Positions 25,284-60,790 of a stretch of 64,000 nt of DNA are shown here, piece after piece. Within the stretch, counting starts at the first letter, position 1. Each line of letters starts with the position of its first letter. The notes beneath the pieces were generated by a model. The model had not been told where the DNA came from, ran no database searches, and saw nothing but the letters and a program-made list of their open reading frames with translations. This stretch comes from Chaetoderma sp. LZ-2023a. Lineage: Eukaryota; Mollusca; Caudofoveata; Chaetodermatida; Chaetodermatidae. The position numbers and the translations under genes were made by a program. The stretch is from positions 136,304,508-136,368,507 of the forward strand of contig CM067374.1 of the NCBI GenBank assembly GCA_034401795.1. Reading direction: 5' to 3'.

Positions 25284-26850
25284 CAAGAGGCCCAAGGGCC
25301 TGTGGCGCTCACCTAGACCATTGGCATTTAAACCATTTGCATTTAAATAGACATGATGGATGATTTTCGGAAAATCCAAAATGGCCACCAAAAAATTGAC
25401 CAATCAAGCCCCTCGTTTAATATGTTGTAGCTAACCATCATAGGATCGTTCCACCCAAGTTTTGTTGAAATCAGGCTATTGATTGAAGGAGTACCATTTT
25501 TAAATGGTTCCGGAAAACTTTCAGAAAATTTGATCAATCAAAATTCTATATGCAGCTTCTAAAGCCTACCGCCCTAGGCTCGTTCCAGCCACCGAATAAA
25601 TTGACCAATCAAAATTCTATATACAAGCTCTGAAGCATAGCACTTTAGGGTTCTTCCAGCCAAGTTTGCTTGAACTCGTTCAAGCGATTAATGAGGAGTA
25701 GCCGTTTAACTGATTTCCCAAAATTTTCAGAAAATTCAAGATGACCACCGGAAAAATGGACCACTCAAAATTCTGTATAAAAGTTCTGAAATCTACCAGC
25801 CTAGTATCCTTCCATCCAAGTCTGGTTGAAATTGCTCAAGCAGTTATTGAGTAGGGTTTAAAACAATTTCTCGCCATTTTTCAGAAAATCCAAGACAGTT
25901 GGCCGAAAAAATTGACAAATCAAAATTCTGTATACAGGTTCTGAAGCCTACTAGGCATGGGATCTTCCATCCAAGTTTGATTGAAATCGGTCCAGTGGTT
26001 ATCGAGTAGTACTTTTAAGTAATTTCCAGAAAATCCAAGATGGCCGCCAGAAAAACTTACCAATCAAAATTCTGTAAACATGTTTTGAAACCTACCAGCC
26101 TAGTATCCTTCCAGCCAAGTATGGTTGAAATTGCTCAAGCAGGTAATGAGGAGTAGCGTATTAAATGATTTCCCACCATTTTTTGGAAAATTCAAGATGG
26201 CCACTGGAAAAATGGACCAATCAAGTCTGTATACAAGTTCTGAAGGATACCACATTAGGGTTCTTTCATTCAAGTTTAATTGAAATCGGCCCAGTGATTA
26301 TCGAGAAGTAGGCTTTTAAGTAATTTCCACAAATTTTCAGAAAATCCAAGATGGCTGATGGAAAAATTGACCAATCAAAATTCTGTATACAAGTTCTGAA
26401 ACATACCAGTGTACTATCTTCCCAGCTAAGCCTGGTTGAAATTGTCCTAGCAGTTAATGAGGAGTAGTGTTTTAAACGATTTACCGCAATTTTTCAGAAA
26501 ATTCAAGATGGCTGATGGAAAAATTGACCAATCAAAATTCTGTATACAAGTTCTGAAACATACCAGTGTACTATCTTCCCAGCTAAGTCTGGTTGAAATT
26601 GTCCAAGCAGTTAATGAGTAGTGTTTTAAACGATTTACCGCAATTTTTCAGAAAATTCAAGATGGCCGCCGAAAATAATTGATCAATCAAAATTCTGTAT
26701 ATAAGTTCTGAAGCCTACCCCATAGGGTCTTTCCAGCCAAATTAGGTTGAAATCTTCCAAGCGGTTAATGAGTAGTGTTTTTAAGCAAAAGTTGACGGAC
26801 GGACAGACGGTCGCCATGCCATAAGCTCGTTCTGGCCAGGTGAGCTAACA
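25284..26850 (+). mobile_element. Pearl-like element, complete, with tandem core
   Basis: It starts with ACAAGAGGCCCAAGGGCCTG and 'tggcgctcaccta', and ends with 'gccataagctcgttctggcc' then AGGTGAGCTAACA. In between are about ten core units marked by 'accaatcaaaattctgtata' at about 25399, 25532, 25603, 25757, 25912, 26060, 26213, 26369, 26525 and 26679; spacing is 148-156 bp for most. There is no ORF. The architecture (unique ends, tandem core of about 155 bp) resembles the non-autonomous pearl elements described in bivalves. Family identity is inferred. Confidence 0.85.
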
Positions 26851-28576: not shown

Positions 28577-31500
28577 CTGAAAGAGAGAAATACATCACAG
28601 TCAAAAACACCAAACGTACAAGCCTTTTAACACTCAGGTCGGCCAAAAACGGCTTCTACAATGAGCTTGGCCATGTCCATTTGCAGCCCAAGAGAAAATA
28701 ATTTTTGAAAATTTACCACTACTGTTAAATTTTCAAAAAATGTTTTCTCTTGGTCTGCAAATGGACATAGAAAATTTTCTTGAACAAATTTGAGGATTAG
28801 AGAGTTAAAACATTAAATGACTAACACAATGGCTAATACCAGGCACATGCTAATACCAGGCACATGCTAATACCAGACACAGGCTAATACCAGACACAGG
28901 CTAATAACCGGCACAGGCTAATACCAGGTACAGGTTAATACCAGGCACAGGCTAATATCAGGAATGTGCTAATAACAGGAACAGGCTAATATCAGGCACG
29001 TGCTAATAACAGGCACAGGCTAATACCAGACACAGGCTAATACCAGACACAGGCTAATACCAGACACAGGCTAATATCAGGCACATGCTAATACCAGACA
29101 CAGGCTAATACCAGACACATGCTAATACCAGACACAGGCTAATACAAGGCACAGGCTAATACCAGACACATGCTAATACCAGACACAGGCACAGAATAAT
29201 ACCAGGCACGTCACTTCTGTAAACACAGGCTAATACCAGGCAAAGGCTTATACCAGGCACGCGTCTCTTCTGTAGACACAGGCTAATACCAGGCACATGT
29301 CTCTTCTGTAAACACAGGCTAATACCAGGCACGTGTCTCTTCTGTAGACACAGGCTAATACCAGGCACAGGCTAATACCAGGAACAGGCTAATACCAGGC
29401 ACATGTCTCTTCTGTAAACACAGGCTAATACCAGGCGTGTCTCTCTTCTGTAGACACAGGCTAATACCAGGCACGTGTCTCTTCTGTAGACACCGGCTAA
29501 TAAAAGGCACGTGTCTCTTCTGTAGATACAGGCTAATACCAGGCACATGTCTCTTCTGTAGACACAGGCAAATACCAGGCATGTGTCTCTTCTGTAGACA
29601 CAGGCTAATACCAGGCATGTGTCTCTTCTGTAGACACAGGTTAATACCAGGCACAGGGTGGCACAAACACAGGCTAATACATGTACCAGGCACAGGGTGG
29701 CACCAAACACAGGCTAATACCAAACACAGGCTAATACCAGGCACAGGGTGGCACAAAACACAGGCTAATACCAGGCACAGGGTGGCACCAGGCACACAAT
29801 GGCACCAGACACACAGTGGCACTAGACACAGGGTGGCACCAGACGCAGGGTGGCACCAGACACACAGTGGCATCTGACACAGGCTGCCAGTCGCACCAAG
29901 CACAGGATGGCACCAGACATGCGGTGGCATCAGACACTGGCTGACACCAGACTGTGTGGCACCAGACACAGGCTAACACCAGAGGCTGGGTGGCACCACA
30001 CACACGCTGACACCACACACAGGGTGGCCCCACCTGTACTCACATTCTCTCTGGTATTAACGTCTCATTGTCTCCTGTTTAACCAACAGATGTTTTGCTA
30101 TAATAGTAGCCATCTAAACCCAGAGTGAATCACCTCCCCATGGAGGATGAGTCATGTGACTGTGGTCATCCAGTCACAATGCATGATATGGGTACTAGAA
30201 AATCAACCTCTGTTGCTTCATGTATGCATGCAGTACTGCCGGTCAGGTAGGGAGGCTGGATGACACTTAAGTAAGGAAGGCAGTTAGAAAGGCAAGATGA
30301 GGTGAGTATCACAAGCCAAGTGGAACATGTGGCTGACATCCTTGATGCCATCACATACACATCTATATATTAATTCCTTAAATATCTGTAATTTAACAAC
30401 ACTAGAGACAATGATTTCTTAGTTAGTTGCCTAAAAGTCAACAGCTTCAAAATGACAAAATGAAGCATTTTCTTTCCAAATTGGTTCCAGTACAGTGGAA
30501 GATTCAAAGGATCCAGTATATATCAGATAAACTGCATTTATACAATACAAAGAGTCAATCCAGGGCATAAATCTTGGGGGTAAATCTGATGAATATCTTA
30601 CCGTTGCTTATTACAAGATTTGGTGTTAACATATCAAGATATAACACTACAGTAGCATTGCTTAATTGAGCTGAAAATTATCCATAATTGTTCTAAAGAA
30701 ACAATGAATAAGATCTTCTCACCCATCAATAGTCCTTATATTTACCTCCCTGAAACCAGGAGGTTGGATTTTTAAAGCTTTGTGGTAAATCAGATGCATA
30801 GCTGTCAGACGTATGCACACACAAATAGAAGCGAATGCAATACACTCGCCATCAGATGGCAATAGGATAATAAGGTACATCCTGATTCACCACACACAAC
30901 CACCACAAAAAATAAAGTAATCATAGTGAAGTTTACAAGTACATACCTGATTGATTGAACTGCAGCTTTTTGTTATTGTGCCGAGATATGCCATCAGACT
31001 GACATCATTACATTGCTAAATATACAAATTAACAATGAGGGCTTGAAATTAGTACGGATAAACACAGAAATGAACAATTAACAACTAGTAGTTTTTCAAA
31101 GACAGGTCTCTTGGTCTGTAAATTAGACAAAGGAAAATTTAGATTTTTCTTAACAAATCTTGACAATTAGACGTCTGACCGCTAAATTTTTGCTGACATC
31201 ATGTTCTAGGGGTTATATCTCTGGATATGATAAATATATTCAGAACAATTTGACTGAAAGTTGTTGGTGGCTAGCCCACCCACAACTTTCAGTCAAATTG
31301 TTCCAAAAATTTTCAGCAAGTTCAAAGTTTTTGCTCATTGAAATTATTATCCGATGGCTTGTAGCAGGGAGACATATTCAAATATTCAACAGCTTACCTA
31401 TGTTGTCTATTGGCAGTTCATATTATATTGGTATTTCAGGACCACTAGTTACATCAATATTAATCTTAAGTTCTTTTACTTGTAATTCACCTTTCCAAAG

Positions 31501-34500
31501 TACCCACCCATCATATGATGTCACAAAGAACTGCGTGATGTGTACAATGACATCATAATGAATGACGTCGATAAGTACATCGCGAACACATATTTGAAGA
31601 TGGTCTATGCGTTGTTGTACAAATTGTTTGTTTTTACTATTACATAAATATTCTGTTGAATATTTTGAAACTAATTTGACTGGGCGCTGTTGCTTATAGG
31701 CAGCAATAGCACCTCCCTGTATAGGTTTCAGGAAATTGATAGCTAGCGCATTTGGGGGATCGATTAATCCCAACACGGCGAGGTGTGGGTGGAGCGTAGC
31801 TAGTGGGCGGGGCATGGCTAAAAATGGAACGGTCCATTATATGAGCAGATTATATATTATAATTAGATTTTAATCATTAGCCCATGATTTAGCCAATCCT
31901 GACAGATTTCAATTTTACTATCACATGTGTAGGTTGGTCCTTAGACAATGGATCTTTCCAGAGTAATGACATCATAATCAGCTAAGCGGCGTGTAGGATG
32001 ACATCATAATCATTACATCATAAATGATTCTATAAAACCCGCCTTTAACTCTTAATAGTCCGACACGTTGTAGGAATTGCATGTCTCTACTATTTAATCA
32101 ACATGTTGTTGAATATTTTGAAACTAATTTGACTGGGCGCTGTTGCTGCCATACTTTACCTGTATAGTTTTCTGGAAATCGATAATCAGGGAGTTCAGAG
32201 ATCGATCAACGTCAACATGAGCGAGGTGTGGGTGGAGCTTAGATTGAGATGGGCAGGGCATAGCCAAAAGTGGAAAGGACCATTGACAGCTGAAATTTTT
32301 TTAATTGCCAGATCGGAATTACCATAGGTGAATGACATGGAATGCAGGAAATTTCAATTTCCCTTTCTCCGAGATCTAACAATACTCACCATTCTGTTAC
32401 TTTCTGATACACAGCTGGCCTTGACAGCTGACTCTAGGACTATAGACCTAGAAAGCTTTACCGACTCCTTGGAACCGGGTACTCGGCTCCCAACTGCCGA
32501 GTACCCGTCTACCATAGAGCTCATATTGTTTGCATAGCCACCAAACAAGAGAAATCCATGGCTTGCCTCCGTGGGGCTGGGAGGCTGGGTCCGTAACAGA
32601 TTGGCGAGTATTGTTAGATCTCGGAGAAAGGGAAATTGAAATTTCCTGCATTCTCCTTCGATCAATACTCACCATTCTGTTACTTTCTGATATACACCAG
32701 ATTTGTTCAGTAACCTGGTGGGAAGGGGCAAGCCATAAATGCTACTTTTGCCCCTTGGAGAAAGATTTAGACATAACAACTTGACTAATGGAGACCTAAA
32801 AGGACCGTCAAGTTATCGGAACCGAATCACATTCACGTCACTGCCCCCGCCCACCCCCCTTTTTCTCCTAAGAAAAGAGAGAGAACTCACGAACATGTAC
32901 CTCGCCTGAAACACAAATATGCCAAGAGGGTTAACTGCTCTTTGCATATATTAGCCTGGGAATGAGCATAAATATATAAGATGAATGATCATGATATATA
33001 GACATAATACAAAACACTCTCAATCGTGAATTACCTCATGATATTTGGAATTCAGACCTGGAGCCTCCAACCATTCACTTGTCCAGCCTCAGTGACACAA
33101 CTGGTTGATATCCTCTCGCTCGACCATGCCTGCTTCTAAATTCTCTCTTACAAATGCCAAAAAAGGAAGAAGAGCAGTGCGGTCATATAGCTATCGTCTC
33201 AAACAGCTAAAGCGAGTGGAATGGCGAAGTCTGACACATCCCTCATATAGTAATCCGTGAAAGAGGACTCACAGTGCCCTTGTGCGACAGCCATGATGTC
33301 CTTAAATGGAACACCATTGTCAAGGGCGGAAGAGGCGGCTAATCCTCTAACAACGTGCCCTTGCGCCTTGCACTTGGAGCCCAGTCAGAATCTCACGGGT
33401 AATCTGAATGCATTCGACTACCCAACGAGAGATAGAATCCATGGATGCGGCGCCATATGGTAGATCCACAGATGTCTATCATTCGACCGTAACGAGTCTG
33501 TCCGTTTTGTACTTAGTCAAAGCACGGACTGGGCACCAGACACTGGCATCACGATCCAACCTACTTAGTTTCGGTATAACGATCGGTTTGCCGGGATATC
33601 TCAAAGATCGAGATCTTTGACATAAACCCTGCTCTTGGCAGAAGACGCAGACCCTCTCTGGAGACAATAAATCGGTCCCTCTGCTGAAAGTGCATGGATC
33701 ACACTGCGCCTTCTAGCTGAGGAAGCTGCCAATAGAAAGACCGCCTTTAGAGTCAAATGCTTTAGACTAGCCGAACGCAACGGTTCGAAAGGGTGCTTGG
33801 CCAGTACATTAAGCAGTAAAGATAGACTCCAGGCTGAAATGACTACCGGTTGTCTCGGTCGGAGATTGCTCATTCCCTTCACCATTCCGGGTGTCCAGAC
33901 AGGTGCCAAAGACAGATTCTGCGGTGGAAAGTCCCACCACTCCGGCATGTACCCCTGGGATAACCATCCCGGGACCAGACTATCTGACGTCACACCTCGC
34001 CAGGCCTCGACGAAACGCATGAGCCTTCCGCCCACCATAGACGCCTCGACGTCTAACAGGGTTGTCCGGCTCGCGGTCCGGTCCACACACCCCCCCCTTT
34101 CTTAACGAGAGAGAGAGAGAACCATTTCCGTCTTGGCTCGGCAGGTATAACCGGCACTGCTGTTCCTGTCGCACAGGTGCGGTCCAGGCGGATATGAAGG
34201 GAGCCCTCGTACCCTCAGGTACGATCTGCTCCCTTCTTTCCGCCCTTGGAGGACTTACCCTTACCCCTCCCCCTGCCCTTCCCGCCTCTAGGGCGATCAT
34301 GAGCAACAGTGGGGAGGGTAGGGGCCTCCACAACCTTCCTGGCTTTCTTAGCCGGCGGCGGCTGAGAAAATCCAGACGAAGCAGAAGTCGCAGTAGGCTT
34401 AGCTTTCGCCTTGCCTTTCTGCTTCTTCTGCATCTTCGAAAGTTGGACAGCTAACGGTTTCCCTACAGCCCCTAGTGCGTGCGCTTGCCGCACTCGCTCC

Positions 34501-37500
34501 AGCTGTCGGCCTACCACCAACCGATTCTGCGCAATGCTGGCAGTGTCCTCTAGGATGGCCCGCGCCTGGCCACCGAAGATGCTAGGCCCTGTCAGGGGTG
34601 TCCCAAGAAGACGCTCCCTGACTGCCGTAGCCGGATGCATATGGTCAAGAACCATTTGCCTCCTGGACTTTGTCACACGCGCCTGCACCCTTGCCAGTGC
34701 GTCCATAGACAGCACCAAGCCGTCATTGACGCACGAAAGCGCCACAGGTGGCACAGGGTGGCCTGCCCCCGCTTCAGCCCACACCGACTGAAGAAGGCGA
34801 TACGATTGGTTGACAGCACTCATAGCTGCCCTCACACCCACATCGCATAGGGACAGGACTTCATCCTGGTGTGCCTGGGACTTGTCCACAAGTGCCGGAC
34901 CGGGGCCACCCGCTCCAGCACTCTGAACACCCAGTACCCAGCGGTCATTCTCGGTGACCGACGGGACAACACCATACCTGTCGTATTCCCCCCGTGGAAT
35001 ACGACCCCTCACCCGCACCTCCATGGAGGCCGCAAGAAGCTGGCCCTTGTTCATGCGTTGTTTGCTATACATAGTATCAAGCAACACCATAAACCATGGA
35101 TCCAGTCCAAAAGACTGGATCAGGGCTGCGGGCAAGATCCCCGTCCTAATCGATGCACCGATGGACGGGGTACATCCTCCTCGGCCGTGGTCGAAACCAC
35201 AGACGGGTCCACCCTGGCTAGCCAAGCCAGAGCCTCAGACCAATCCGTCTCCGAGGAGGACACTCCCGTGAACACGTCACCCGTTGACATGTTCACGGCC
35301 CTACCAGCAATGGCCATTGGAGCCATTGCTGATATGCCAGGAACTCCGGTACCGTACGGTTCCGCCGCCACCCCATGGAACACACCAGTCCATGGAGTAG
35401 GCCTGCACGGAAACCGTGCGGACCCGTAGCGGTTAAGGAACCGTGGACAAACACGGGCACCAACGGCACCCCATGTCTGACCGCCGGACCAGGCGAGATA
35501 GGTGAGTACCATGCCTGGCCGGCCACACCCGTCACCGTGGCGGTTGGCAGCAAACCAACCATCACGGGACCGGTGCCCGGTACTGGAGTGGCCTCAACCA
35601 CGGGCGGAGCCGCTGCCTTGGCTTGCGCCAGGCCAGACAGATGGGAGGTCAGGTTCCATCAGGACGGAATCAACCTCCATGCTCTCCACCCGCGGCCTCA
35701 CAGACCGCAGCACACTCTCCTCCTCGGCCTCCTCATCTTCAGACCCCTAAGAGTCGTCACTAGACAAGGAAAACCGTGGTGGACGGCTCCCATGCCTGAC
35801 GGACCGGCCACCGCTACTGGACCACCCGGAGGTGGCCGCAGAGAGACAGAACCCATCAGGCCGGAGCCCGACGGGACTGTCAGGGGGCTGTACGAAACGG
35901 CTCCCTCGGTGTCCAGTCCAGAACCCTGTCCAAGGACAGGGTCCGAATCAAACATGGGGAGAGACTGCCCTACAACTTTTGGCAGCAGGGACGACACCAG
36001 CGTGGGCAGAACGCTATGCAAGACACCTTGCCTAGCCGGACCAAACCATGCCGGCGGTGCCATTTCCGCCACCTCCAGTTGCAGACGTGGAATGCCCCCA
36101 CGGGCCGAAACGGACGCTCCACGATTTACTTTCGGACCGCCTGACCCCGCGTCAGACCCTGCCAAGTCTTTCTGGCAAGGAACTTAAGCATCATATCGAC
36201 CGACCACACCGCGCAAACGTTACACCTACTGTCAAGACTATACTTAGTACAGTGGAAACAGACATGGTCCTTGTATAGAACCCGTACAATATGTGGCACT
36301 CGACACATGATGGCGGGGATGGCTTGGCCTATAAACCAAACCTACAATAAGTCAGCGGAACGAAACAAAAGTGGAAGGCAGACAATTAATTTTCAAATAA
36401 TTTGACCATAAATTAACTGCAAACCCTCCCGCATTGATTATGACAAGAACGAAGCGGGCATAAATACACCCATAAATTGATCCTCCACGATGTATAACGG
36501 AACCAGGAATCATATCGCATAGCATTCGGGGTATATTTACCAATCAATATAAATTATACTCCTAACGAAAGCCGACACGATATGTGAAGAAACAACAAAA
36601 TGAAAACAAACTGCTGTAGCACACGGTAAAACCGCAGACCACGCATCACTCAAGAATTTTGACACCACCGATCATTCCAAACCGATCATGATCACACGTA
36701 AACTTGACCATTCCAAAGTTTTCTGGTACCATTTTTAGTATGCAGCACCCAGAACAAGATCCACGAATTAATGAACAAATTTTCTTCACATAAACATCCG
36801 AGCATCACGGGTGTGACATCACCCGCTCGGACCCTATGGAGAACGACGTCAGCCGATATTCGTGTTAGAAATACCATAGCAAACACCTATTTTCATATCT
36901 GCCGATCGCCTGTTGGGATTTAAAGAAGGCGATCGTCTGCCATATCACGTTGTTAGCACACGTCCAAGATTCTATGGGGTCAGAAATTGGGACATGCGAC
37001 ACAACGAAATTTAGAGACCTAAGTCTTTTAACTATGGATAATAAGGAATAATACAACCTGGTCATCACTGGCGGTATTCTCCATTTTATCCAGTTAGATC
37101 CTTTCAAGAACGCACAAACTATCAAATCACAGTATAAAAGACTTAGATTTCTTTTCAAAAACTGTAATCTTTCTCCTGCAAAAAAACGTGGACAGCTCTT
37201 GTCGCTATGCAAACAAGAATGAGCTCTATGGTAGACGGGTACTCGGCAGTTGGGAGCCGAGTACCCGGTTCCAAGGAGTCGGTAAAGCTTTCTAAGTCTA
37301 TAGTCCTAGAGCCAGCTGTCAAGGCCAGCTGTGTATCAGAAAGTAACAGAATGGTGAGTATTGATCGAAGGAGAATCCTTGTGCCGACAAGACATCATTC
37401 AACTGCTATTATATGCACTTTGTTAATTGCATAATTTCCAATATATTGCACAAATCATCATTAACCCTTTAATGGCCAAGCCATCTTCAGCAGCGCTCTT

Positions 37501-43500: not shown

Positions 43501-46500
43501 CCTTTAGGCATATCAGATCCATCAATATTCAAACATGATATAGCCTGAACATTTGTTAAGAGAGGGATTCATTTCTAACAATGTCTTACCTATTTCTAGC
43601 TAATGCTTTGCCTGAGCTGGGATCGATCAAAATCTGAATTACCAGAATCCAAATATCAATGTATGCTGTTGAATATTTAAAAATTAATTTGGCTGGGTAG
43701 TTCCCAATTAAATTAATTCAAAATATTCAACAGATTGTTTATTAAATAGTAAAGACATATTTTCAAAATAGTCTTCTTGCGGTCTCCAAATGGATGCATA
43801 TCAAATGGGCAGTGTGCGTGCGTGCGTGCGTGAGTGAGTGGGTGAGCGAGTGAGGCGAGTCTTACCTCTCCATTGACGAGATCAATCACCGACTCAAACA
43901 CGGAAACAGGTAACTGTAATGTAATCACACATTGCTTACTTACTACATTATAAACACTCATAGAGTTAGTCATTTTATAGTCTTCCCCCGAATATGGATT
44001 TTTATCACCACAGTGCCGCAAGATTACTGTCTGGGTGTCTGTTTCCAGCATGATAACTCAAGTTCTGGTCTGCAGTGAACTTCATTGTGTGTGAGTTGGG
44101 TTTTTTTGGGAGGGGGTGTCTCATAATTTTAGGTCCACAGGTAAATGTCATCAACATGGGTGGTTGGCTGTGACTCTAACCTCTGAATACTCGTAGCCTC
44201 AATTTGGAAGTGTCACTCCATACCGCTAAACCACCCTCTCATACCTGCTTATGTTAAATACATCTAAATATGACAAAGTATGCATATTATCAATATCTGT
44301 ACTCATGATTGCCTCCCACTTGGTGTGATATTAACATTTCTAATTGACATGTTGAGTGGGGGTTGGGGTGGGGTGGGGGGGGGGGGGGGGGAGGGAAGAA
44401 ACACACACCTATCCTAAGCTTGAGATGTTGGAGGTGGGGGGGGGGGGCATATGCCCAACCTGGGCTTGAGATCCATGGCAGAGGACAACATGCCGATCCT
44501 GAGATTAACAACCTGACTTGACATTAATGAATTATAATCAAAATGGATTACTTACATCTGTTTTTCTTGACAGAGGGTTTAACTTGAGCAGGATTGGACT
44601 TTCATTGATTTGACAGATCTGTAATAGCAGAACAAATAATGAAAATAATTAGCAAATGAGTTTTGTTTCTAAGAGGTAGAGAAATTTTGCTTTCATGAAT
44701 ACGTTTTTGCTATCTCTAAGACTTTCTCTCATAATTTGATAAAACTTACTAATACAAATCGCCATCTTTTAATGGTCAAGCCGGACGTTGAGGAATGTCC
44801 ATTTACTGACCAAGAGATGATTTTTGAAAATTTACCACTGTAAACAAGCCAGTCATTCCAGTTGTAAAATTTTAACAAGAGGCCCAAGGGGCCTGTATCG
44901 CTCATCTGGACAATAGGCATTTCAACTAGAATGCTCTTTATCAACAAGATGGCCAGCAAACCGTTTATCCGACAGTTTCGAAAATTGCAAATTTGAGATC
45001 AGAATACCCCAAAAAACATATAAAACCAATTTTGGCCTCAAAATCCATCAAATAAAAAAATCCAACATGGTTATCAAACATGCTATATTTTTATTGTCCC
45101 ACAGTGGCCATGTTTTTTGACGGATCAACCTCTCTTGAACAAACTTTAATGGCCCTTAGGCCCTAATCATATCTGCCAAATTTCGGTCCGATCCCTTCAG
45201 CGCTTCTGGAGAATAAGTAATTTTCGCTACAACTAGGTCAACCAAGATGGCCGCTTAACCATTTGACCAAATTGGCCGATCGGGTTCATTTGAAAAAACT
45301 TAGATCTATATATGCCTATGAATGCTTCCTCCCAAATATAATTGAAATCGGCCCAGTGGTTCTTGAGAATAAGTCGTTTAAAGAATTCCCCATTGCTTTA
45401 CTATGGGCCCATTGCTTTAATATGGGAGCCTATGGCGGGAAAACAAACCAAGATGGCAGCCAAACGGTTTATTTGACAGTCTCGAAAATGGCATATTTGA
45501 ACTCGCCACACTGATAAGCACATATAAAGCAATTTTCGCCATCAAAATACATCAAATACAAAAAAGACAATATGACCAACAGACGCTAAATTCTGATTGG
45601 CTGATGGCGGCCATGTTTTTTAACGTACAAACTTCCCTTGAATGGACCTTGGTCCCTAAGCATATTTACCAAATTTCAGACCTATCACTTCAGCGGTTCG
45701 GGAGAAGTCATTTTCGCGAAAACTAGGTCATCCAAGATGGCCGCGAGGCAAATAGGCCAATCAGGTTGCCTTGAACACACTTGGGTCTACCGTTGCAATA
45801 GATGATGTGTTATGCGTTTTGAATCAATTCCTCCAGCGGTTTCAGAGAAGATTTTTTAGTGTTTCTAAAAACCGGCTATTTTGGCCGGCGGCCATCTTGG
45901 ACTTTGGCCAATCGGCTTCATTTGAACAAACTTGAATCTCTATGCCCTAGGGATGCTTCCTGCCAAATATAATTGAAATCGGCCCAGTGGTTCTTGAGAA
46001 GAAATCATTTTAAATGAAAAGTTGACGGACGGACGAGACGATGGACGGTCGCCACGACATAAGCTCACTTGGCCTTTCAGGCCAGGTGAGCTAAAAATCA
46101 TCTCTTGGCTTGCAAATGAATGAGGATTTTAATTGTCTTGACTATTAGCCCTTTCACCGATGAATTTGCCACATCTCATTTTCACGGCAATCATATAGGA
46201 AAACTGTTAAATATTTGCCCCAGGTGGCAATGGCTTCCAGTCCAAAAAAATTTCAAGAGATTCAACACAATAAGTTTTATATCGTAAAAAATTTAATTTT
46301 TCAGGAATTTGTCATTGAAATGGCTAAATAAGATATAGTGAGGGCTAAATAAGATATACATGTAGTGATGGCTAAATAAGATATAGTGAGGGCTAAATAA
46401 GATATACATGTAGTGAGGGCTAAATAAGATATAGTGAGGGCTAAATAAGATATACATGTAGTGAGGGCTAAATAAGATATAGTGAGGGCTAAATAAGATA

Positions 46501-48947
46501 TACATGTAGTGAGGGCTAAATAAGATATAGTGAGGGCTAAATAAGATATACATGTAGTGAGGGCTAAATAAGATATAGTGAGGGCTAAATAAGATATACA
46601 TGTAGTGAGGGCTAAATAAGATATAGTGAGGGCTAAATAAGATATACATGTAGTGAGGGCTAAATAAGATATAGTGAGGGCTAAATAAGATATACATGTA
46701 GTGAGGGCTAAATAAGATATAGTGAGGGCTAAATAAGATATACATGTAGTGATGGCTAAATAAGATATAGTGAGGGCTAAATAAGATATACATGTAGTGA
46801 TGGCTAAATAAGATATAGTGAGGGCTAAATAAGATATACATGTAGTGAGGGCTAAATAAGATATAGTGAGGGCTAAATAAGATATACATGTAGTGATGGA
46901 TAAATAAGATATACATGTAGTGAGGGCTAAATAAGATATACATGTAGTGATGGCTAAATAAGATATAGTGAGGGCTAAATAAGATATAGTGAGGGCTAAA
47001 TAAGATATACATGTAGTGAGGGCTAAATAAGATATACATGTAGTGAGGGCTAAATAAGATATACATGTAGTGAGGGCTAAATAAGATATACATGTAGTGA
47101 GTGCTAAATAAGATATACATGTAGTGATGGCTAAATAAGATATAGTGAGTGCTAAATAAGATATACATGTAGTGATGGCTAAATAAGATATAGTGAGTGC
47201 TAAATAAGATATACATGTAGTGATGGCTAAATAAGATATAGTGATGGCTAAATAAGATATAGTGATGGCTAAATAAGATATAGTGAGGGCTAAATAAGAT
47301 ATAGTGAGGGCCTCCTTAACTACAGTGTTCATACATCTCCTACAGAATAAAATTCCATTCTCCAGACTTACTTCGACAGCAAATTTCAGACCCATGTCAT
47401 GATCCATTGAATCTGTCTCTTTCCAAATGTAAATCTTTTTAAGAACACTGATAAAATTAGTAACTAAGATCTGAAATATTTCGAAGATTATCTGTTTTAC
47501 ACAAGAGCTGGAATCACAGATGATGATATTTCAATCTCCCATACATTTTATGACTTGGAAAAGTGTTTCTGATATTTCCCTACTTATTTTAGAGTTTCAA
47601 ACCTGCATTTAGCCAACCAGTATTATTGTAGACGCCATCTTTGATTACCAAGTCTGGAAGTTCACACAGAAAACATACTTATGACCAATGTTAAGTCTGT
47701 TACATGGGTAGCTGGTTGCGTACTACAATGTCTGATACTGACGACTCATCACATGTCAGTTTCTCATCTATTTCTGTACTACAATGTCTGATACTGACGA
47801 CTCATCACATGTCAGTTTCTCATCTATTTCTGTACTATAATGTCTGATACTGACGACTCATCACATGTCAGTTTCTCATCTATTTCTGTACTATAATGTC
47901 TGATACTGACGACTCATCACATGTCAGTTTCTCATCTATTTCTGTACTATAATGTCTGATACTGACGACTCATCACATGTCAGTTTCTCATCTATTTCTG
48001 TACTAGAATGTCTGATACTGACAACTCATCACATGTCAGTTTCTCATCTATTTCTGTACTATAATGTCTGATACTGACGACTCATCACATGTCAGTTTCT
48101 CATCTATTTCTGTACTATAATGTCTGATACTGACGACTCATCGCCTGTCAGTCTCTCACCTGTTTGTGTACTATGTCTGATACTGACGACTCATCACCTG
48201 TCAGTCTCTCACCTGTTTGTGTACTATGTCTGATACTGCCGACTCATCGCCTGTCAGTCTCTCACCTGCTTATGTACAATGTCTAATACTGACGACTCAT
48301 CACCTGTCAGTCTCTCACCTGTTTGTTTACTATAATGTCTGATACTGACGACTCATCACCTGTCAGTCTCTCACCTGTTTGTTTACTATGTCTGATACTG
48401 ACGACTCATCACCTGTCAGTTTCTCACCTGTTTGTGGACCACTATGTCTGCTGGAGATGGCTCCTCACCTGTAGTGTACCAGCCAAGAAAGTCCATATCA
48501 CTAAAAACTTGTTTAACTGAAATAAGAAAACACAACTTTGACGTGATAGAAGGCAAGGCATAGATATATCTGTATTTAATTACAAAATCTTTTGTTGCAC
48601 ACACACATTTTTTAAACACGTAAAACTTAATGAATAACGAAATATGTACGTTACTATGGTTACTCACAATGTTTTGATTACGAGATATTTGTGTTACTAT
48701 GGTCACTCAGTTTGCTGACAAAGAAAGATTGTATTACTATGGGTACTCAGTCTGCTCATAACAAGACATTTGTGTTCCCATGGTTACTCTGATAAGATAT
48801 ATATCTATTACTCACACTGTTCCTCCTTCAGTTGGTAATACTCCGTGTCTATAACAATATCGTTGTCGACTTTATCAAACAGCAATTCAAATGAATTCAT
48901 CACTTCAATATTCCGCCCCTTCTGCTTGCCTATCAGTGCACCAATAA
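28490..48947 (-). CDS. cops6: COP9 signalosome subunit 6 (nine of its exons)
   Basis: CSN6 is a non-catalytic MPN-domain subunit of the COP9 signalosome, the nuclear and cytoplasmic complex that removes NEDD8 from cullin-RING ligases; it pairs with the catalytic subunit CSN5. Joined exons encode 264 residues from [20 protein letters not shown] (mid-MPN) to a stop at 28490-28492. Recognisable family blocks are [107 protein letters not shown] and [17 protein letters not shown]. The position where CSN5 has the JAMM histidines reads WYTT, as expected for inactive CSN6. All introns are GT-AG and phases agree. Human CSN6 has 327 residues, so roughly 60 N-terminal residues lie upstream, probably past 64 kb. 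The C-terminus carries a few extra residues after the usual ending. The introns are swollen by TEs, but the coding exons show no lesion. Confidence 0.96.
28690..28760. repeat. Foldback repeat, family 1 short form
   Basis: 'ttgaaaatttaccact' pairs with 'aaattttcaaaaaatg' across a small loop lacking the GACTGG core. 'tctgcaaatggacat' follows. It lies in the intron upstream of the last cops6 exon. Confidence 0.75.
28836..30022. repeat. Three-zone minisatellite (17/36-bp units)
   Basis: Zone 1 (28836-29215) repeats a 17-bp unit 'gctaataccaggcacag'. Zone 2 (29215-29650) repeats a 36-bp unit in which the 17-mer is fused to 'gtgtctcttctgtagacac'. Zone 3 (29650-30022) repeats 'ggtggcaccagacacag' variants. 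The long Cys/Leu-rich open frames on both strands are products of this array. It lies in the cops6 intron between exons h and i. Confidence 0.95.
30030..30947. other. cops6 intron sequence without recognised repeats
   Basis: Nothing beyond short AT-rich sequence is seen between the minisatellite and exon h. Confidence 0.4.
30948..31016 (-). CDS. cops6: cops6 exon h
   Basis: A 69-bp phase 0-0 exon encoding [20 protein letters not shown] and INQ. Acceptor 'tatatttag', donor 'gtatgtactt'. Confidence 0.95.
31248..31312. repeat. Foldback repeat (TTGACTGAAAGTTGTTG type)
   Basis: 'gaacaatttgactgaaagtt' pairs with 'aactttcagtcaaattgttc' around 'gttggtggctagcccaccca'. A related variant is at 62740-62830. 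Confidence 0.88.
31488..31839. mobile_element. Composite MITE (left copy of a pair)
   Basis: It carries 'cacctttccaaag', 'tgatgtcac', a half family 2 foldback (31655-31700), 'cccaacacggcgaggtgtgg' and 'atggaacggtccatta'. The foldback has lost its right arm. Confidence 0.7.
31946..32285. mobile_element. Composite MITE (right copy, TIRs visible)
   Basis: The ends 'caatggatctttccag' and 'gtggaaaggaccattg' are inverted repeats of about 15 bp. The interior has 'gacatcataatcagctaagc', a half foldback at 32110-32150, and 'gggagttcagagatcgatca'. No target duplication is evident. Confidence 0.75.
32343..32530. repeat. DIRS copy 1, left inverted terminal repeat
   Basis: It contains 'caatactcaccattctgtta', 'gctttaccgactccttgg' and an internal hairpin 'cgggtactcggc' / 'gccgagtacccg' at about 32477-32508. 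The complement occurs at the right end of the element. Confidence 0.9.
32592..32691. repeat. DIRS copy 1, internal complementary region
   Basis: It reads as the complement of the extreme left end ('gttagatctcggagaaaggg') fused to the complement of the extreme right end ('attctccttcgatcaatact'). This is the classical arrangement by which DIRS elements restore their ends, and it records the sequence of a circle junction. Confidence 0.9.
33250..33900 (-). pseudogene. DIRS copy 1, tyrosine recombinase remnant
   Basis: The frame at 33601-33890 encodes [35 protein letters not shown] and [16 protein letters not shown], the N-half of the recombinase catalytic domain including the first Arg. Downstream (to about 33250) the [11 protein letters not shown] region and the C-terminus survive in pieces, with several lesions. 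The N-terminal part is deleted, with the junction at about 33885. Confidence 0.85.
33890..36345 (-). pseudogene. DIRS copy 1, ORF1 (gag-like), broken
   Basis: Three or more frames (36126-36308, 35698-36165, 35120-35512, 34215-35225) reproduce ORF1 of the better copy. These contain a Cys-rich start ([22 protein letters not shown]), a Pro/Gly-rich middle, an Ala-rich helical region, and a basic tail ([33 protein letters not shown]). Gag-like proteins of DIRS elements are thought to bind element RNA. Frame lesions exclude function. Confidence 0.8.
37207..37375. repeat. DIRS copy 1, right inverted terminal repeat
   Basis: It is the complement of 32374-32530, including the 12-bp-stem hairpin, and ends at 'gatcgaaggagaa' (37375). 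The flank continues 'tccttgtgccgacaag'. Confidence 0.9.
37500..37950. repeat. Degenerate foldbacks in cops6 intron
   Basis: A short family 1 form is at 37530-37580 ('gaaaatttcccactg' / 'gggaaatttcca'). A degenerate family 2 form starts at 37721 ('gttgaatattttgaagata'). Confidence 0.55.
37951..38051 (-). CDS. cops6: cops6 exon g
   Basis: A 101-bp exon from phase 1 to phase 0 encoding [20 protein letters not shown] and [14 protein letters not shown]. Acceptor 'ttcttgtag', donor 'gtaagaatgc'. The next intron, 6.9 kb, contains the defective DIRS-like element. Confidence 0.95.
38052..38828. other. cops6 intron, AT-rich, no recognised feature
   Basis: Nothing supported was seen between exon g and the foldback at 38829. 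Confidence 0.4.
38829..39060. repeat. Foldback element with ATAGGATGAGTTTA ends
   Basis: 'ctataggatgagttta' (38829) and 'taaactcgtcctaca' (38951) are inverted. A tail 'acatcacgtgatttatattt' and 'tttctcggcgacatt' follows. It is a diverged sister of 49351-49545. Confidence 0.8.
39404..39724. mobile_element. hAT-like non-autonomous element
   Basis: The ends 'taggcttgtgcgattattgc' and 'gtaatcgcgcaagccta' are inverted repeats of about 18 bp, with further AT-rich complementary blocks inside ('cgattaatcagc', 'cgatttaatcacg'). TAGGC-type ends suggest hAT. An 8-bp target duplication is not clear here. Confidence 0.65.
40025..40391. mobile_element. Composite MITE with complete central foldback
   Basis: It shares 'acccacccatcatatgat', 'cccaacacggcgaggtgtgg' and 'gtggggcatagctaaaaatg' with the pair at 31.5-32.3 kb. 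The central foldback at 40200-40268 is intact, with arms 'gttgaatattttgaaactaa' / 'ttagttacaaaatattcaac'. Confidence 0.75.
40445..40537 (-). CDS. cops6: cops6 exon f
   Basis: A 93-bp phase 1-1 exon encoding [20 protein letters not shown] and [11 protein letters not shown]. Acceptor 'tgtttacag', donor 'gtcagtcaca'. It starts the C-terminal helical region used for complex assembly in this family. Confidence 0.95.
40708..40802. repeat. Foldback around a GACAGCAACATC-type core
   Basis: Arms 'tggtgttcatttttcaacaa' and 'ttgtttgaaaatgtacacca' pair. The inner arms 'gatggtgctgtcg' / 'gacagcaacatc' pair again, giving a nearly continuous 90-bp palindrome. Confidence 0.88.
41285..41427. repeat. 20-bp minisatellite
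   Basis: The unit 'tcccagaagtgagcttggta' is repeated about seven times with two or three substitutions. It lies in the cops6 intron between exons f and g... upstream side reading on the gene strand is exon e-f; coordinates place it in intron e/f. Confidence 0.93.
41655..41725. repeat. Foldback repeat, family 2 (short loop)
   Basis: 'ttgaatattttgaaactagt' pairs with 'ttaattacaaaatattcaac' across the very short centre 'tgactggactcagtca'. Confidence 0.88.
41905..41957. repeat. Small palindrome AAAAATGCTGTAG
   Basis: 'aaaaatgctgtag' (41911) pairs with 'ctacagcattttt' (41946) around a loop of about 23 bases. Confidence 0.8.
42125..42250. repeat. Foldback repeat, family 1
   Basis: Arms 'tgaaaatttagcactagaat' and 'attccagtggtaaattttca' flank 'gactggcttgataaccagtg'. 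'ggtctgcaaatgaacatttt' follows. Confidence 0.85.
42430..42880. repeat. Composite MITE with family 2 foldback, plus family 1 half
   Basis: A family 2 foldback sits at 42563-42645 inside composite-MITE sequence ('gatgacatcataatcaact', 'aagcgttggtggagctta'). A half family 1 unit follows at 42795-42870, just before exon e. Confidence 0.7.
42900..43014 (-). CDS. cops6: cops6 exon e
   Basis: A 115-bp exon encoding [20 protein letters not shown] and [18 protein letters not shown], ending with one base of the next codon. Acceptor 'tgtgacag', donor 'gtatcccagc'. It closes the MPN domain. Confidence 0.95.
43030..43320. repeat. Composite MITE with family 2 foldback
   Basis: The foldback at 43088-43182 has arms 'gttgaatattatgaaactaa' / 'ttagtttcaaaatattcaac'. 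It is followed by 'aaacatgggcggagcttacc' and 'gggcggggtatag'. Confidence 0.75.
43335..43590 (-). repeat. Interspersed repeat, uninterrupted copy (empty site)
   Basis: The reverse complement of this stretch aligns with 49535-49615 joined to 50187-50345, including 'ttaacaaatgttcaggctat' and 'aaaggacatcttccagagga'. It shows the pre-insertion sequence at 'atatcaga' (43510-43517). Confidence 0.88.
43668..43737. repeat. Foldback repeat, family 2
   Basis: 'gttgaatatttaaaaattaa' pairs with 'ttaattcaaaatattcaac' around 'tttggctgggtagttcccaa'. Confidence 0.82.
43866..43913 (-). CDS. cops6: cops6 exon d
   Basis: A 48-bp microexon-sized phase 0-0 exon encoding [16 protein letters not shown]. Acceptor 'acattacag', donor 'gtaagactcg'. 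Confidence 0.95.
44354..44450. repeat. Poly-G tracts
   Basis: Two G-rich runs (about 44376-44392 and 44436-44449) within G/T-rich sequence. Low complexity; assembly errors are possible here. Confidence 0.85.
44556..44618 (-). CDS. cops6: cops6 exon c
   Basis: A 63-bp phase 0-0 exon encoding [20 protein letters not shown] and D. Acceptor 'attacag', donor 'gtaagtaatc'. It matches the family segment normally ending in LNPMTKHTD, with a lineage-specific SRKTD ending. Confidence 0.94.
44800..46130. repeat. Family 1 foldback split by a pearl-like element
   Basis: The left part ('gaaaatttaccactg', 'agccagtcattccagttgta') ends at about 44873. The right part ('aaaaatcatctcttggcttg') resumes at about 46093, as in uninterrupted family members. 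Confidence 0.85.
44874..46093 (+). mobile_element. Pearl-like element, second subfamily
   Basis: It starts 'aacaagaggcccaaggggcc' and ends 'cacttggcctttcaggccag' then GTGAGCTAA. The core is built from 'caagatggccgc' and 'aaattggccaatcggcttca' units instead of the 155-bp unit of the 25284 copy. Two to three units of about 350 bp can be followed. No ORF. Confidence 0.85.
46310..47312. repeat. Higher-order 21+27-bp minisatellite
   Basis: A 21-bp unit 'gctaaataagatatagtga' (plus gg) alternates with a 27-bp unit containing an added 'catgta', giving a 48-bp higher-order period over most of the array. Only 'gatgg' for 'gaggg' and similar point variants occur. The 307- and 368-codon open frames on the minus strand are repeat artefacts. 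It lies in the cops6 intron b/c. Confidence 0.97.
47313..47720. other. cops6 intron between two minisatellites
   Basis: No feature is supported here. Confidence 0.4.
47721..48427. repeat. 56-bp minisatellite made of copies of cops6 exon b and its donor
   Basis: About 13 units of 53-59 bp run up to the exon b donor. Read on the gene strand, each exon-proximal unit contains 'cagacatagt' and 'caaacaggtgaga', which is the end of exon b plus its donor. Five units (about 48156-48375) keep the CAG/GTGAGA donor. About seven more distal units have 'atgaga' in place of 'gtgaga' and so have lost the GT. Confidence 0.93.
48428..48516 (-). CDS. cops6: cops6 exon b, beside its own minisatellite
   Basis: The acceptor is 'tatttcag'. 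The exon completes a Phe codon and encodes [20 protein letters not shown] and ADIVVHKQ, ending in phase 0 at CAG before donor GTGAGA (48427-48422). The 56-bp tandem array at 47721-48427 begins exactly at this donor. Confidence 0.96.
48517..48815. other. cops6 intron a/b
   Basis: A near-repeat 'tactatggttactca' / 'tactatgggtactcag' recurs three or four times (48650-48790). Nothing else is seen. Confidence 0.45.
48816..48947 (-). CDS. cops6: cops6 exon a (first in window)
   Basis: The acceptor 'ttgcag' precedes TTATTGGTGCAC, so a G from the upstream exon completes the Val codon (phase 1). It encodes VIGALIGKQ through YYQLKEEQ plus one base. The donor is 'gtgagtaata'. This is the centre of the MPN fold. 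Confidence 0.95.
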
Positions 48948-55900: not shown

Positions 55901-56935
55901 CTATCGTTTCAAAACAGCTAAAGCGAGTGGATTGGCTGTGCCTGAGACATCCCTCATATAGTAATCCGTGAATGAGGACTCACAGTGCCATTGTGCAACG
56001 GCCATGATGTCCTCTAACGGAACATCACTGTAAAGGGCGGTCGACGCGGCTATTCCTCTAACATTGTGTGCCCTTGCGCAAATGCACCTGGTGCCCAGTC
56101 GCCATCTCATGAGTAGTCTGAATGCATTCGACTACCCAACGAGAGATAGTATCCATGGATGCGGCGCCATAAGGCTTCTTATGGCAGATCCATAGATGTC
56201 TATCGTTCGACCGTAACGAGTCTGTCCATTTTCTGTACTTAGTCAAAGCACGGACCGGGCACCAGACACTGGCATCACGATCAAACCTTGTTAGTTTCAG
56301 TATAATGATCGGTTTGCCGGGATATCTCAAAGATTGATTCTTTGACATAAACTCGTCTCTTTGCAGAAGACGCAGACCCTCTCCGGAGACAATAAATCGG
56401 TCCCTCTCTGCTGAAAGTGCATGGATCTCACTGCGCCTTCTAGCTGAGGAAGCTGCCAATAGAAAGACCGCCTTTAGAGTCAAATGCTTTAGACTAGCCG
56501 AACGAAACGGTTCGAAAGGGTGCTTGGCCAGTACATTAAGCACTAAAGATAGACTCCAGGCTGGAATGACTACCGGTTGTCTCGGTCGGAGATTGCTCAT
56601 TCCCTTCACCATCACATTTAACTGGGCCACCTCTGGACTATCCCTGTTGGCTAGACAAGGGATAACTGATGCCAAAGCTGACTTGTATCCAGCAATTGTG
56701 ACGGGAGCTAGTCCTGAAAAGAACAGCTCACAGAGAAAGTCTATTTGCTGAATAGTGGATTGAAAGGTATCAATACCCTTTTCTTCACACCAGTCTGTAA
56801 ATCTGCTAATCTTGTTGTTATATGACTTGAAGGTTGACCTCCTTCTCGCAGCCGCGATGAAATCAGCAGCTTGTCGAGAAAAGCCTTCCGACGCGGAACG
56901 TTGTTTGATAACATCCACGCAGTCAATTTGAACAT
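55901..56935 (-). pseudogene. DIRS copy 2, tyrosine recombinase (one frameshift)
   Basis: This enzyme would insert the circular element DNA by site-specific recombination. The N-terminal core-binding domain (RRSTFKSYNNKISRFTDWCE) spans residues 25-120. The catalytic domain contains [17 protein letters not shown] (first Arg), CPVRALTKY, then, after a frameshift at about 56085, RAHNVRGIAAS (His-x-x-Arg box) and [12 protein letters not shown], which provides the tyrosine nucleophile. It ends at 55901. All four recognisable active-site positions survive. The start overlaps the end of the RT frame (56923-56935), as usual in DIRS elements. Confidence 0.92.
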
Positions 56936-58600
56936 TTCGGGACGCTCGTGTAGGAAGCGTCCCGTGGCCTAATCTCGGGTAACTGCACTGGGTTTTCCAC
57001 CAGCAGATCTAGAAGATCCGTGAACCACGCCCTGCTGGGCCAATACGGCGCTATTAGCAGGATCAGGCACGGTTCCTCTCTGATCTTCACCAATACCTTC
57101 GGCAGAAGAATGGTGGGTGGGTACGCGTAAGCGTGCATCCCTCTCCAGCTTATCGCCAGAGAGTCTGTATCGACGGCATTTGGATCTGGAATCGGCGAGA
57201 CATGAGTCATGATTTGAGCATTTTCCCGTGTGGCGAACAAGTCCACGTTGGGTTTGCCCCAATGCTCGAAGATCCTTCTTAGAACTGGAGGGTTGAGGGA
57301 CCATTCTGTTGGCAGAATTATCTGTCTGCGAGACAAAGCATCTGCCAGAATGTTCAATCGCCCAGGAATGTGAGCTGATTTCAAAACAACCGAGTAATTC
57401 CTGCACCATTGAATCAAGTGCCACACTTTGATACACAGTGTGGGTGACTTGGTCCCGCCTCGGCCATTTATGTATGATACTACCGTCGAATTGTCCAACC
57501 ATATCAATATCACCTTGCCCATGATCATTGGAAGAAACTCTTCCAACGCCAGTTCCACTGCCATCATTTCCAACAGATTGATATGCAGTTGGCTCTCCTG
57601 GAGAGTCCATGTGCCCGAGACCTGGTGCTCTCCCAGGCAGGCCCCCCACCCCTCCAGCGATGCATCCGTGTACACGGACAGCTGGGGGTGGGGTAGGTGC
57701 TGCGAAACCCCATCTAGGAGATTCTGACACTTTTTCCACCATACAAGATGCGACATTATTGGCTCCACAACTGGCTCCAGTTTTGACAGGGGTTCTGTTC
57801 TCTGTTTCCACAGAGACATCAGATACAACTGGATAGGTCTTCGCATTAGAGCAGCGTACGGGATCACCTGCTCCATGGAGACCATCATGCCCAGCATCTG
57901 AAGAAACCGCCTCGCCTGAATGTGGTTTCCCAATCGAAAACTCTTGAGGATGGCTAACAGAGAAACCACTCCTCGAGATCGAATCGCATCCCTAAATAAA
58001 CGAAATGTTGAGTGGGTGTCAACTCGGATTTCTCCTTGTTGACTATCCAGCCTAGATCTGAAAGTAACTTCAGAGTCAAAGCAGTATCCACCTCTAACCT
58101 GGCTGCCGTGTCTGCCTTGATCAGCCAATCGTCTATGTAGGTGTGTAGCACCACGTTCTCTTTTCTGAGAAACGCTGTCACCGCAAGGACCACTCTTGTG
58201 AAAACCCTTGGAGCTGTCGACAGGCCAAATGGGAGGACAATAAACTCCCATACTTGATTCTGAAACGCAAATCTCAGAAACCTGTGACAACTCCTGTTCA
58301 TTGGAATGTGGAAATATGCATCTTTCAGATCGATCGACACGCACCACATTCCCTTCCTCAATCCTGCCATTACCGACCTCGGCGTTTCCATCTGGAACCG
58401 AGGCGTATGGATAAACCAATTTCATGGCCTGAGATTGAGTATGGGTCTCCATCTCCCTGTGCTCTTGGGAACAAGGAACATATTTGAATAGAAGTCTGGA
58501 GTGTTCTGGTTTGCTGGTTTTATTGCTCCCTTCAGAAGCAAACCTGACACTTCGTTTTGAATGGCTTCTAACTTGTCTGGTTCCTTGGTACGGGTGTCCA
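56923..58600 (-). pseudogene. DIRS copy 2, reverse transcriptase and RNase H
   Basis: RT blocks on the minus strand are FYSNMFLVPKSTGRWRPILN near 58450, VSIDLKDAYFHIPM (58303-58345), FVLPFG-type WEFIVLPFGLSTAPRVF near 58220, and the catalytic TYIDDWLI (58121-58143). An in-frame TGA sits at about 58420 and a frameshift at about 57960-58020. RNase H follows in the 560-codon frame, with Asp in YTDASLEGWG (57645-57675), Glu in LLEMMAVELALE, Asp in LIWLDNSTVV and the last Asp in LADALSRRQI. The segment after RNase H (VDLFATRENAQ to APYWPSRAWFTDLL) is a conserved block of DIRS elements sometimes described as methylase-like; I see no methylase motif I can vouch for. Confidence 0.92.
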
Positions 58601-60790
58601 GACACGTGCCAAAGACAGATTCTGTGGTGGAAAGTCCCACCACTCCGGCATGTATCCCTGGGATAACCATCCCAGGACCAGACTGTCTGACATCACACCT
58701 CACCACGCCTCGACGAAACGCATGAGCCTTCCACCCACTATAGATGCCTCGACGCCTAATGGGGTTGTCCAGATCGCGGTCCGCTCCCCCCTCTCTTAAC
58801 GAGAGAGAGAGTACCATTTCGGTCTTGGCTCGGCTGGTCTAACTGGCACCGCTGTTCCTGTCACACGATCCGCTCCCTTCTTTCCGCCCTTTGAGGACTT
58901 ACCCTTCCCGCCTCTAGGGCGATCAGGAGCAACATTGGGGAGGGTAGGGGCCTCCACAACCTTCCTGGCTTTCTTCGCCGGCGGCTGAGAAAAGCCAGAC
59001 GAAGCAGCAGCCGCACTAGGCTTAGCTTTCGCCTTGCCTTTATGCTTCTTCTGCTTCTTGGAAGGTTGCACGGTCAGCGGCTTCCCTACAGCCCCTAGTG
59101 CGTGTGCTTGCCGCACCAGCTAGCTGTAGGTTCACCGCCAACCGATTCTGCGCAATACTAGCCGTGTCCTCTAAGATGGCCCGCGCCTGGCCACCAAAGA
59201 TGCTAGGACCTGTCAGGTGCGTCCCAAGAAGACGCTCCCTGACGGCCGTAGCCGGACGCATATGGTCAAGAACCATTTGCCTCCTGGACTTCGTAACACG
59301 CGCCTGCACCCATGCCAGTGCGTTCATAGACAGCACCAGGCCGTCATTGATGCACGAAAGCACCACAGGTGGCACAGGGTGGCCTGGCCCCGCTTCAGCC
59401 CACACCGACTGAAGAAGGCGATAAGAATGGTTGACAGCACTCATGGCTGCCCTCACCGCAAAGGGACAGGACTTCCTCGTGGTGTCCCTGGGATTTGTCC
59501 ACCAGTGCCGGGGCGGGGCCACCCGCTCCAGCACTCTGGACACCCAGAACCCATCGGTCATCCTCAGTAACCGACGGTACAACACCATACCTGTCGTATT
59601 CCCCCCGTGGAATATGACACCTCGCCCGCACCTTCCTGGAGGTCGCAGGGAGCTGGCCCTTGGTCATGCGTTGCTTACTATAAATAGCCTCGAGCAACTC
59701 AATAAACCGTGGATCCAGTCCAACGGACTGGATCCGGGCTGCGGGCAAGATCCCCGTCCTGATCGATGCCACCGATGGACGGGGCGCATCCTCCACAGCC
59801 GTGGTCGAAACCACAGACGGGTCTACCATGGCTAGCCAAGCCAGAGCCTCAGACCAGTCTATTTCCGAGGAGGACACACCCGTGAACACGTCACCCGTTG
59901 ACATGTTCACGGACCTACCAGCCACGGCCTCCCGGCTAGGAGCCGTGGCTGACACGCCAGGAACTCCGGTACCATACGGTTCTGCCGCCAACCCATGGAA
60001 CACCGTGCGGACCCATAGCAAACACAGAACCGTGGCCAGCCACGGGCGCCAACGGCACCCCATGTCTGACCGCCGGACCAGGCGAGGTAGGTGAGTACCA
60101 CGCCTGGCCCAGCACACCCGTCACCGTGTTGGTCGACCTCCATATTCTCCACCTGTGGCATCACAGGCCGCAGCAACCTCTCCTCCTCGGCCTCCTCATC
60201 TTCAGACCCCGAAGAATCGTCACTAGACGAGGAAACCGTGGAGCCATCCTGGCGGACGGCTCCGATGCCTGACGGACCGGCCACCGCTACTGGACCACCT
60301 GGAGGTGGCCGCAGAGAGACAGAACCCGTCAGGCCGGAGCCCGACGGGACTGCCAGGGGGGGCCGTACGACGGCTCCCTCGGCGACCAGTCCAGAACCCC
60401 ATCCAAGGACAGGGTCCGAACCAAGCATGGGGAGAGACTGCCCAACAACTTTCGGCAGCAGGGACGACACCAGCGTGGGCAGAAAGCCCTGCATAGCCGG
60501 ACCAAACAATGCCTGCGGTGCCATCTCCGCCACCTCCAGCTGAATACGTGGAGCGCCCCCAAGGGCCGAAACGGATGTGCCACGATTTAATTTTGGTCTG
60601 CCTGACCCCGCATCAGACCCCTTCTGGGCAAGGAACTTCATCATCATATCAACGGACCACACTGCACATATATTACACCTATTGTCAAGGTTACACAACG
60701 TACACCGAAAGCAGACATGGTCCTTAAACAGGACCCGGACGAACTTGTGGCACTCGTCACATGATGGCGGGGCTGGCTTGGCCTATAAAT
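58600..60790 (-). pseudogene. DIRS copy 2, ORF1 (gag-like)
   Basis: It starts near 60785 with a Cys-rich segment: CDECHKF, then HVCFRCTLCN, then RCNICAVWS, giving a series of CxxC pairs that could bind zinc. A Pro/Gly-rich section, an acidic Ser-rich patch ([20 protein letters not shown] near 60200), an Ala-rich helical region and the basic tail [16 protein letters not shown] plus [16 protein letters not shown] follow. At least two frame breaks (about 59900 and 59100) occur. The product would package RNA in the cytoplasm by analogy with retrotransposon Gag. Confidence 0.8.

Follow-up and report, generated by a model that had tools for sequence, protein, structure and literature searches.

The window analysed here is a stretch of 64,000 nucleotides from the caudofoveate mollusc Chaetoderma sp. 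LZ-2023a (assembly GCA_034401795.1, contig CM067374.1, positions 136,304,508 to 136,368,507 of the forward strand). Its minus strand carries the animal COPS6 gene, encoding subunit 6 of the COP9 signalosome (CSN6), and directly behind one coding exon of this gene, exon b, lies a minisatellite whose units resemble the end of that exon together with its splice donor. The COPS6 exons, located with tblastn, extend from 48948 to 28508, with a first exon upstream of the window (L003 8578-8718). When joined they give an open frame of 259 codons, solved CSN6 chains were matched along the full length of the 260-residue joined translation, and a Pfam JAB/MPN match falls on exons a and b. Exon b (48428..48516, 89 nt), recognised by tblastn with COPS6, by Pfam JAB and by the open joined frame, is preceded by exon a (48816..48947; tblastn) and followed, after an intron of about 3.8 kb, by exon c (44556..44618; tblastn and joined frame). 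A total of 998 CSN6 relatives was found; many bivalves and further marine invertebrates are among the best 120 of them, and the top identity to the window COPS6 among these 120 is 77%. It is also worth mentioning that exon f ends at 40445 in an apparently poor donor, GTCAGT, yet the joined frame runs into the following exon.

Exon b ends in ...CAGACATAGTGGTCCACAAACAG/GTGAGAAACTGACA, with the protein end ..DIVVHKQ, so that its donor is CAG/GTGAGAAACTGACA; at the true donor the exon stops with base 48428. Read directly, the donor GTGAGA is followed by an in-frame stop three codons into the intron (V R N stop, 48416..48427); this is the TGA, after GTG AGA AAC, that had been announced in a preliminary description of the locus. 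The array behind it (48413-47712, minus strand) consists of roughly 13 units in tandem, each 53 or 56 bp long. Tandem Repeats Finder (TRF) reports a period of 56 and 13.0 copies at 47720-48433, in agreement with the roughly 13 units counted originally; the period of 56 bp then given to the array holds for units 2 and 6-12, but units 1, 3, 4, and 5 have 53 bp, and unit 13 is a diverging edge. The source segment, here called unit 0 (48414..48469, minus strand; alignment and direct reading), consists of 42 exon nt and 14 intron nt (GTGAGAAACTGACA). The duplicated stretch is thus the exon end plus the donor, as first proposed, with 42 exon bases instead of the approximately 45 given then. There is no gap between unit 0, which holds the true donor, and unit 1: the array abuts the exon b donor.

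The units fall into two types. Units 1-5 (type A; 48146..48413, minus strand), the five nearest to the exon, retain, as the preliminary description had it, an intact CAG/GTGAGA donor (direct reading and donor scan), and their nine-base sites are identical. In units 6-12 (type B; 47754..48145, minus strand; direct reading and motif scan) the site reads TAG/ATGAGA, and the donor is dead in all seven. The GT to AT loss noted earlier in the distal units is common to the whole block and accompanied by CAG to TAG; 7/7 type B units have two donor changes, C to T at position -3 and G to A at position +1, as well as C to G at column 36. When gaps are ignored, pairs of type A units show 0-6 differences, pairs of type B units 0-4, and pairs of mixed type 5-9; unit 6 starts as type A and ends as type B. 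Unit 13 (47698..47753, minus strand; unit comparison) is recognisable over about 42 nt, to about 47712 (..GTAGTACGCAACCAG), with a diverged tail. At three columns it agrees with the exon against most type B units, which would fit an old edge unit, although overall, with 21 differences in 56 columns, it is the least exon-like of all.

Likeness of the units to the exon end

Units 1-12 can be aligned throughout with the last 42 nt of the exon and the 14 adjoining intron nt, with 71-79% identity. Global alignments of whole units with the exon scored about 9 standard deviations above dinucleotide shuffles, and those of the 42 coding bases alone reached z values of 6.2-6.5; in both comparisons, with 5000 shuffles per unit for units 2, 5, and 12, no shuffle was as good. 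When the exon 42-mer was run along the window without gaps, it matched the 56-bp units and unit 13 at 27-30 bases and the 53-bp units, where a gap would be needed, at 23-26; no site beyond the array exceeded 24. A 21-base motif comprising the donor and its tail, with up to three mismatches allowed, has 13 matches, i.e., 12 in the array and the true donor, and none in 100 shuffles. As a control, 17 array stretches (the long ones in part) were compared with nine exons on both strands, self-overlaps being excluded; the pair considered here scored 59 and any other pair at most 26. Finally, a single search of the 2.44-Gb assembly with a 700-base array query, made with a tool that skips very common words and with one candidate region scored, placed the array at the COPS6 locus only, as two pieces, the second of which corresponds by its coordinates to units 12-13 aligned with the exon plus the beginning of unit 1 (82%). 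The preliminary description had named two outcomes that would speak against an exon origin, a unit-to-exon similarity no better than that of shuffled sequence and the same array at unrelated loci; the real scores are far above the shuffles, and the single assembly search found no such array.

The likeness extends to the protein level. A CSN6 profile was built from the homologous 14-residue segment of 119 of the best 120 of the 998 relatives (98 distinct segments; P0112, with extra residues there, was left out). Among the 61,142 stop-free 14-mers of the window (mean score -42.7, standard deviation 8.1) the exon ranks first (29.7), unit 2 second (11.3), and unit 13 eleventh (-5.4); units 1, 3, 4, and 5, with a lost codon, and units 6-12, with a stop, lie outside this ranking. 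The exon shares Val10 with units 12 and 13, and none of the 119 homologues has it. Asp2 occurs in 13/13 units and Ser7 in 12/13, both being also the residues of the homologue majority (76/119 and 77/119, respectively), while the exon reads Glu2 and Ala7, a combination present in only one of the 119 homologues. The simplest order of events suggested by these residues would be the appearance of Val10, then the duplication, and then the change to Glu2/Ala7 in the exon; changes in the units are possible instead.

Two other origins of this resemblance can be considered. An unrelated satellite might have landed at the donor, resembling the exon by chance, and the window is indeed rich in tandem repeats, with 36 TRF rows; the absence of an equal among 5000 shuffles in each of the six whole-unit or coding-part comparisons, the CSN6 profile, and the array-exon control lead us to reject this coincidence, whose probability is practically negligible. 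The direction might also have been the reverse, an intronic satellite being present first and then captured as the exon end, for which nothing speaks beyond the exon-unit similarity itself. Such a capture is extremely unlikely and is likewise rejected, since the exon end is ancient: Pro4 is found in 111/119 homologues, Asp8 in 118/119, Ile9 in 115/119, and His12 in 119/119 (Gln14 also in 119/119, although this is set by the way the segments were picked), and unit 1 has neither Pro4 nor His12. The original claim that the array copies the exon end and its donor is thus borne out by the shuffle statistics, the CSN6 profile, the common Val10, and the one assembly search, and an exon-derived minisatellite carrying a splice donor is a well-supported description of it.

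Donor sites, predicted products and proposed history

The last exon-like bases at the five decoy donors of units 1-5 are 48375, 48319, 48266, 48213, and 48160; the outer two were located correctly from the start, and the inner three had been placed at 48318, 48265, and 48215. The true donor and the five decoys share the same 9-mer, CAG/GTGAGA, with a score of 89.9 each (Shapiro-Senapathy table) and equal U1 pairing energy. An inner donor-like site within exon b, CAG/GTGAGG (48463..48471, minus strand; donor scan), with 48469 as the base before GT, lies 41 nt upstream of the true donor and scores slightly higher, 90.3, and there are four weaker CAG/GTGATG sites (76.9). No site matching the strength of the true donor was found in the rest of the intron (2977 bp scanned). 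Among the TRF rows of the window with a period of at least 12 (n = 33, overlaps included), the COPS6 array alone has more than one strong donor, namely six, the true one and the five decoys.

Eleven donor-like sites were joined in silico to exon c, and the frame stays open across the later exons with the true donor only. The inner exon b site shifts the frame, and the nine remaining sites, all five strong decoys among them, give the same early stop, HKQVRN*. Extra units would therefore not lengthen the protein in frame at any of the five strong decoys. A protein cut short there would lack the later portion of the MPN fold as well as its own C-terminal half. At the eight AG sites examined in the array, 4-6 of 14 positions are pyrimidines, compared with 8-12 of 14 at eight real acceptors of the gene, so that none of these eight qualifies as a new acceptor with a polypyrimidine tract. 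Type A units do contain AGGT, as part of CAG/GTGAGA, within the duplicated segment; taken as mutually exclusive tandem exons, all five would keep the frame and possess donors, but their acceptors are poor (4/14 pyrimidines).

Taken together, these features probably reflect a tandem duplication across the exon/intron boundary, homogenised later in two blocks, which is tolerated rather than functional. In the germ line, a short tandem duplication would have copied the last 42 nt of exon b with the donor and 14 intron nt. It likely started by copying between short matching ends, because the two ends of the copied piece are similar (ACT-ACAGG on the exon side, ACTGACAGG on the intron side). The copies may then have multiplied through unequal exchange or slippage, and homogenisation would have yielded the two blocks, donor-intact type A and type B; as the type B changes are present in 7/7 units, one unit probably lost its donor and then multiplied. 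Splicing most likely stays at the first, exon-attached donor, since no other gives the full-length protein. The five decoys are probably tolerated, and whatever they capture would be destroyed as early-stop mRNA; most likely the array has no function.

Several observations weigh against this reading. Taken by themselves, the first 21 coding bases show no more than a moderate similarity to the exon, 8 of 5000 shuffles being as good, and Val stands at the tenth codon in only two of the nine units having that codon, six reading Ile and unit 8 Leu. Counts of differences by codon position (e.g., 5/1/7 in unit 12) are weak and at most suggestive of selection on the unit codons. One of 52 non-overlapping arrays in 230 kb of the same contig also has at least three strong donors: this array, at L013, has a period of 157 and holds six strong donors in 2.5 kb, so that donor-rich arrays are not unique to the COPS6 locus. 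The predicted unpaired probability of the true donor, 0.015, lies within the range of the five decoys, 0.008-0.062, and does not favour it. RNA structure as the cause of donor choice was therefore rejected, predicted accessibility not singling out the true donor, and the argument for the first donor being the one used is that the protein is needed.

Two functional roles have to be set against mere tolerance. Use of the type A decoys might be regulated, each leading to the same early stop and lowering CSN6 output to a level set by copy number. The equality of decoys and true donor in 9-mer and U1 pairing energy, the shared truncated ending of every decoy product, and the position of the intact donors in the five units closest to the exon would all suit such regulation; however, the intact block is equally explained by clonal homogenisation, and no insertion after the HKQ junction is seen in 119 homologous proteins, though these are all from other species (118 of the 119 fit the residue pattern at the junction, P0111 missing it by Cys for Ser). 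Judged from the sequence, regulated decoy use is rather unlikely. Alternatively, exon b could stop at the inner donor at 48469, and a unit, from TGACAG to CAG/GTGAGA, could replace the exon end in frame. The strength of the inner site agrees with this, and in 5/5 type A units the swap lets the later exons be read in an open frame, but the would-be acceptors have 4/14 pyrimidines in all five, against 8-12/14 at the eight real ones, and the 3-nt length steps between units account for the open frames with no need for selection. Such substitute mini-exons are very improbable, and the tolerated exon-derived duplication remains the preferred explanation.

Other repeats and elements in the window

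In the intron before exon b, a self-repeat scan found a degenerate array (48620..48787, minus strand; about 41 bp x 4) that is not among the TRF rows. One of its unit junctions, AACATTGTGAGTAA, may be compared with the end of exon a and its donor, AACAGTGTGAGTAA, and a second donor-seeded array is possible, as a lead only. Its best run score of 20.0 exceeds the maximum of 12.2 in 60 shuffles, but self-repeat scores of at least 20 also occur in 19 of 138 window tiles, which weakens the case. The exon a end plus donor scores 23 against the array, a value reached by one of 500 shuffles; exon a with its flanks also scores 23, which is within the range of 200 shuffles (maximum 25) and of four unrelated pairs (22-26). 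For intron a and the final 60 bases of exon a the score is 18, and 96 of 500 shuffles do as well; the junction 14-mer has two window matches including itself, equalled in 11 of 100 shuffles. A kinship of the exon b array with the 41-bp array is unsupported, the local score of 21 being reached by 39 of 500 shuffles. It might be speculated that the decoys hold back a core subunit of the COP9 signalosome, with the count of intact type A units setting the share of mRNA lost and the dead type B block representing selection easing this load; the 41-bp array would then be a second such event in the gene, hinting that strong donors seed minisatellites. We regard this combination as quite unlikely.

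A second minisatellite in the intron between exons b and c (46322-47311; 48 bp, about 20 copies) lies 0.4 kb past the exon b array and contains no strong donor. The last COPS6 intron found carries several overlapping arrays of 17-57 bp (GGCTAATACCAGGCACA type; 28831-30032), and arrays of about 155-157 bp are present in three places: 15307-15813, 25598-26784, and L013 5131-7652, the last with six strong donor-like sites. Two retroelement-like regions, about 56061-60782 and 34001-36341 (the scan was cut at 34000), have open frames that look alike by eye. The best two matches of a retroelement fragment, with 57% and 62%, are no closer than those of COPS6. The frame 56070-57008 matches proteins, some of which carry PF00589, and for this reason a DIRS-like element is likely.

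Comparison with known systems

For the human IFI6 gene (6-16, G1P3), Turri, Cuin and Porter in 1995 (NAR 23:1854) are said to have described minisatellite units of about 12 bp, with extra units adding a few in-frame residues. The COPS6 array resembles the IFI6 case in abutting the donor, with the true donor inside the first unit, and five of its 13 units have an intact donor. It differs in that its units are of 53 or 56 bp, 42 nt of a coding exon are copied, the decoys all stop early, and a donor-dead block has spread. That the IFI6 minisatellite supplies several splice donors is stated in two articles that cite this work (PMC4526556, PMC3618361).

In human segmental duplications, internal tandem repeats that lie at exon-intron boundaries can alter splicing (PMC2812944). 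They differ from one recent paralogue to another and are supported by transcripts, whereas the COPS6 array is known from one gene and one allele, as DNA. In intron gain by tandem duplication (the Rogers model), as outlined in a further study, the duplicated segment crosses an exon/intron boundary, and in potato an exonic cryptic donor became a new donor (PMC4974935). The COPS6 segment crosses such a boundary as well; it differs from the intron gain outlined there in copying the donor side, with no polypyrimidine tract included. No minisatellite made of an exon end and its donor was found among the titles and abstract openings listed in searches of open-licence literature, with COPS6 not among the keywords.

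The end of a coding exon becoming a minisatellite can be considered a route by which introns gain decoy splice sites. With a true donor, five copies of the same nine bases spaced 53-56 nt apart, and seven matched dead copies, the COPS6 locus is a natural experiment and a test bed for how position alone decides between identical donors. What is already known is a minisatellite that supplies splice donors; what differs at COPS6 is the size of the unit, its exon content, the truncating products, and the donor-dead block.

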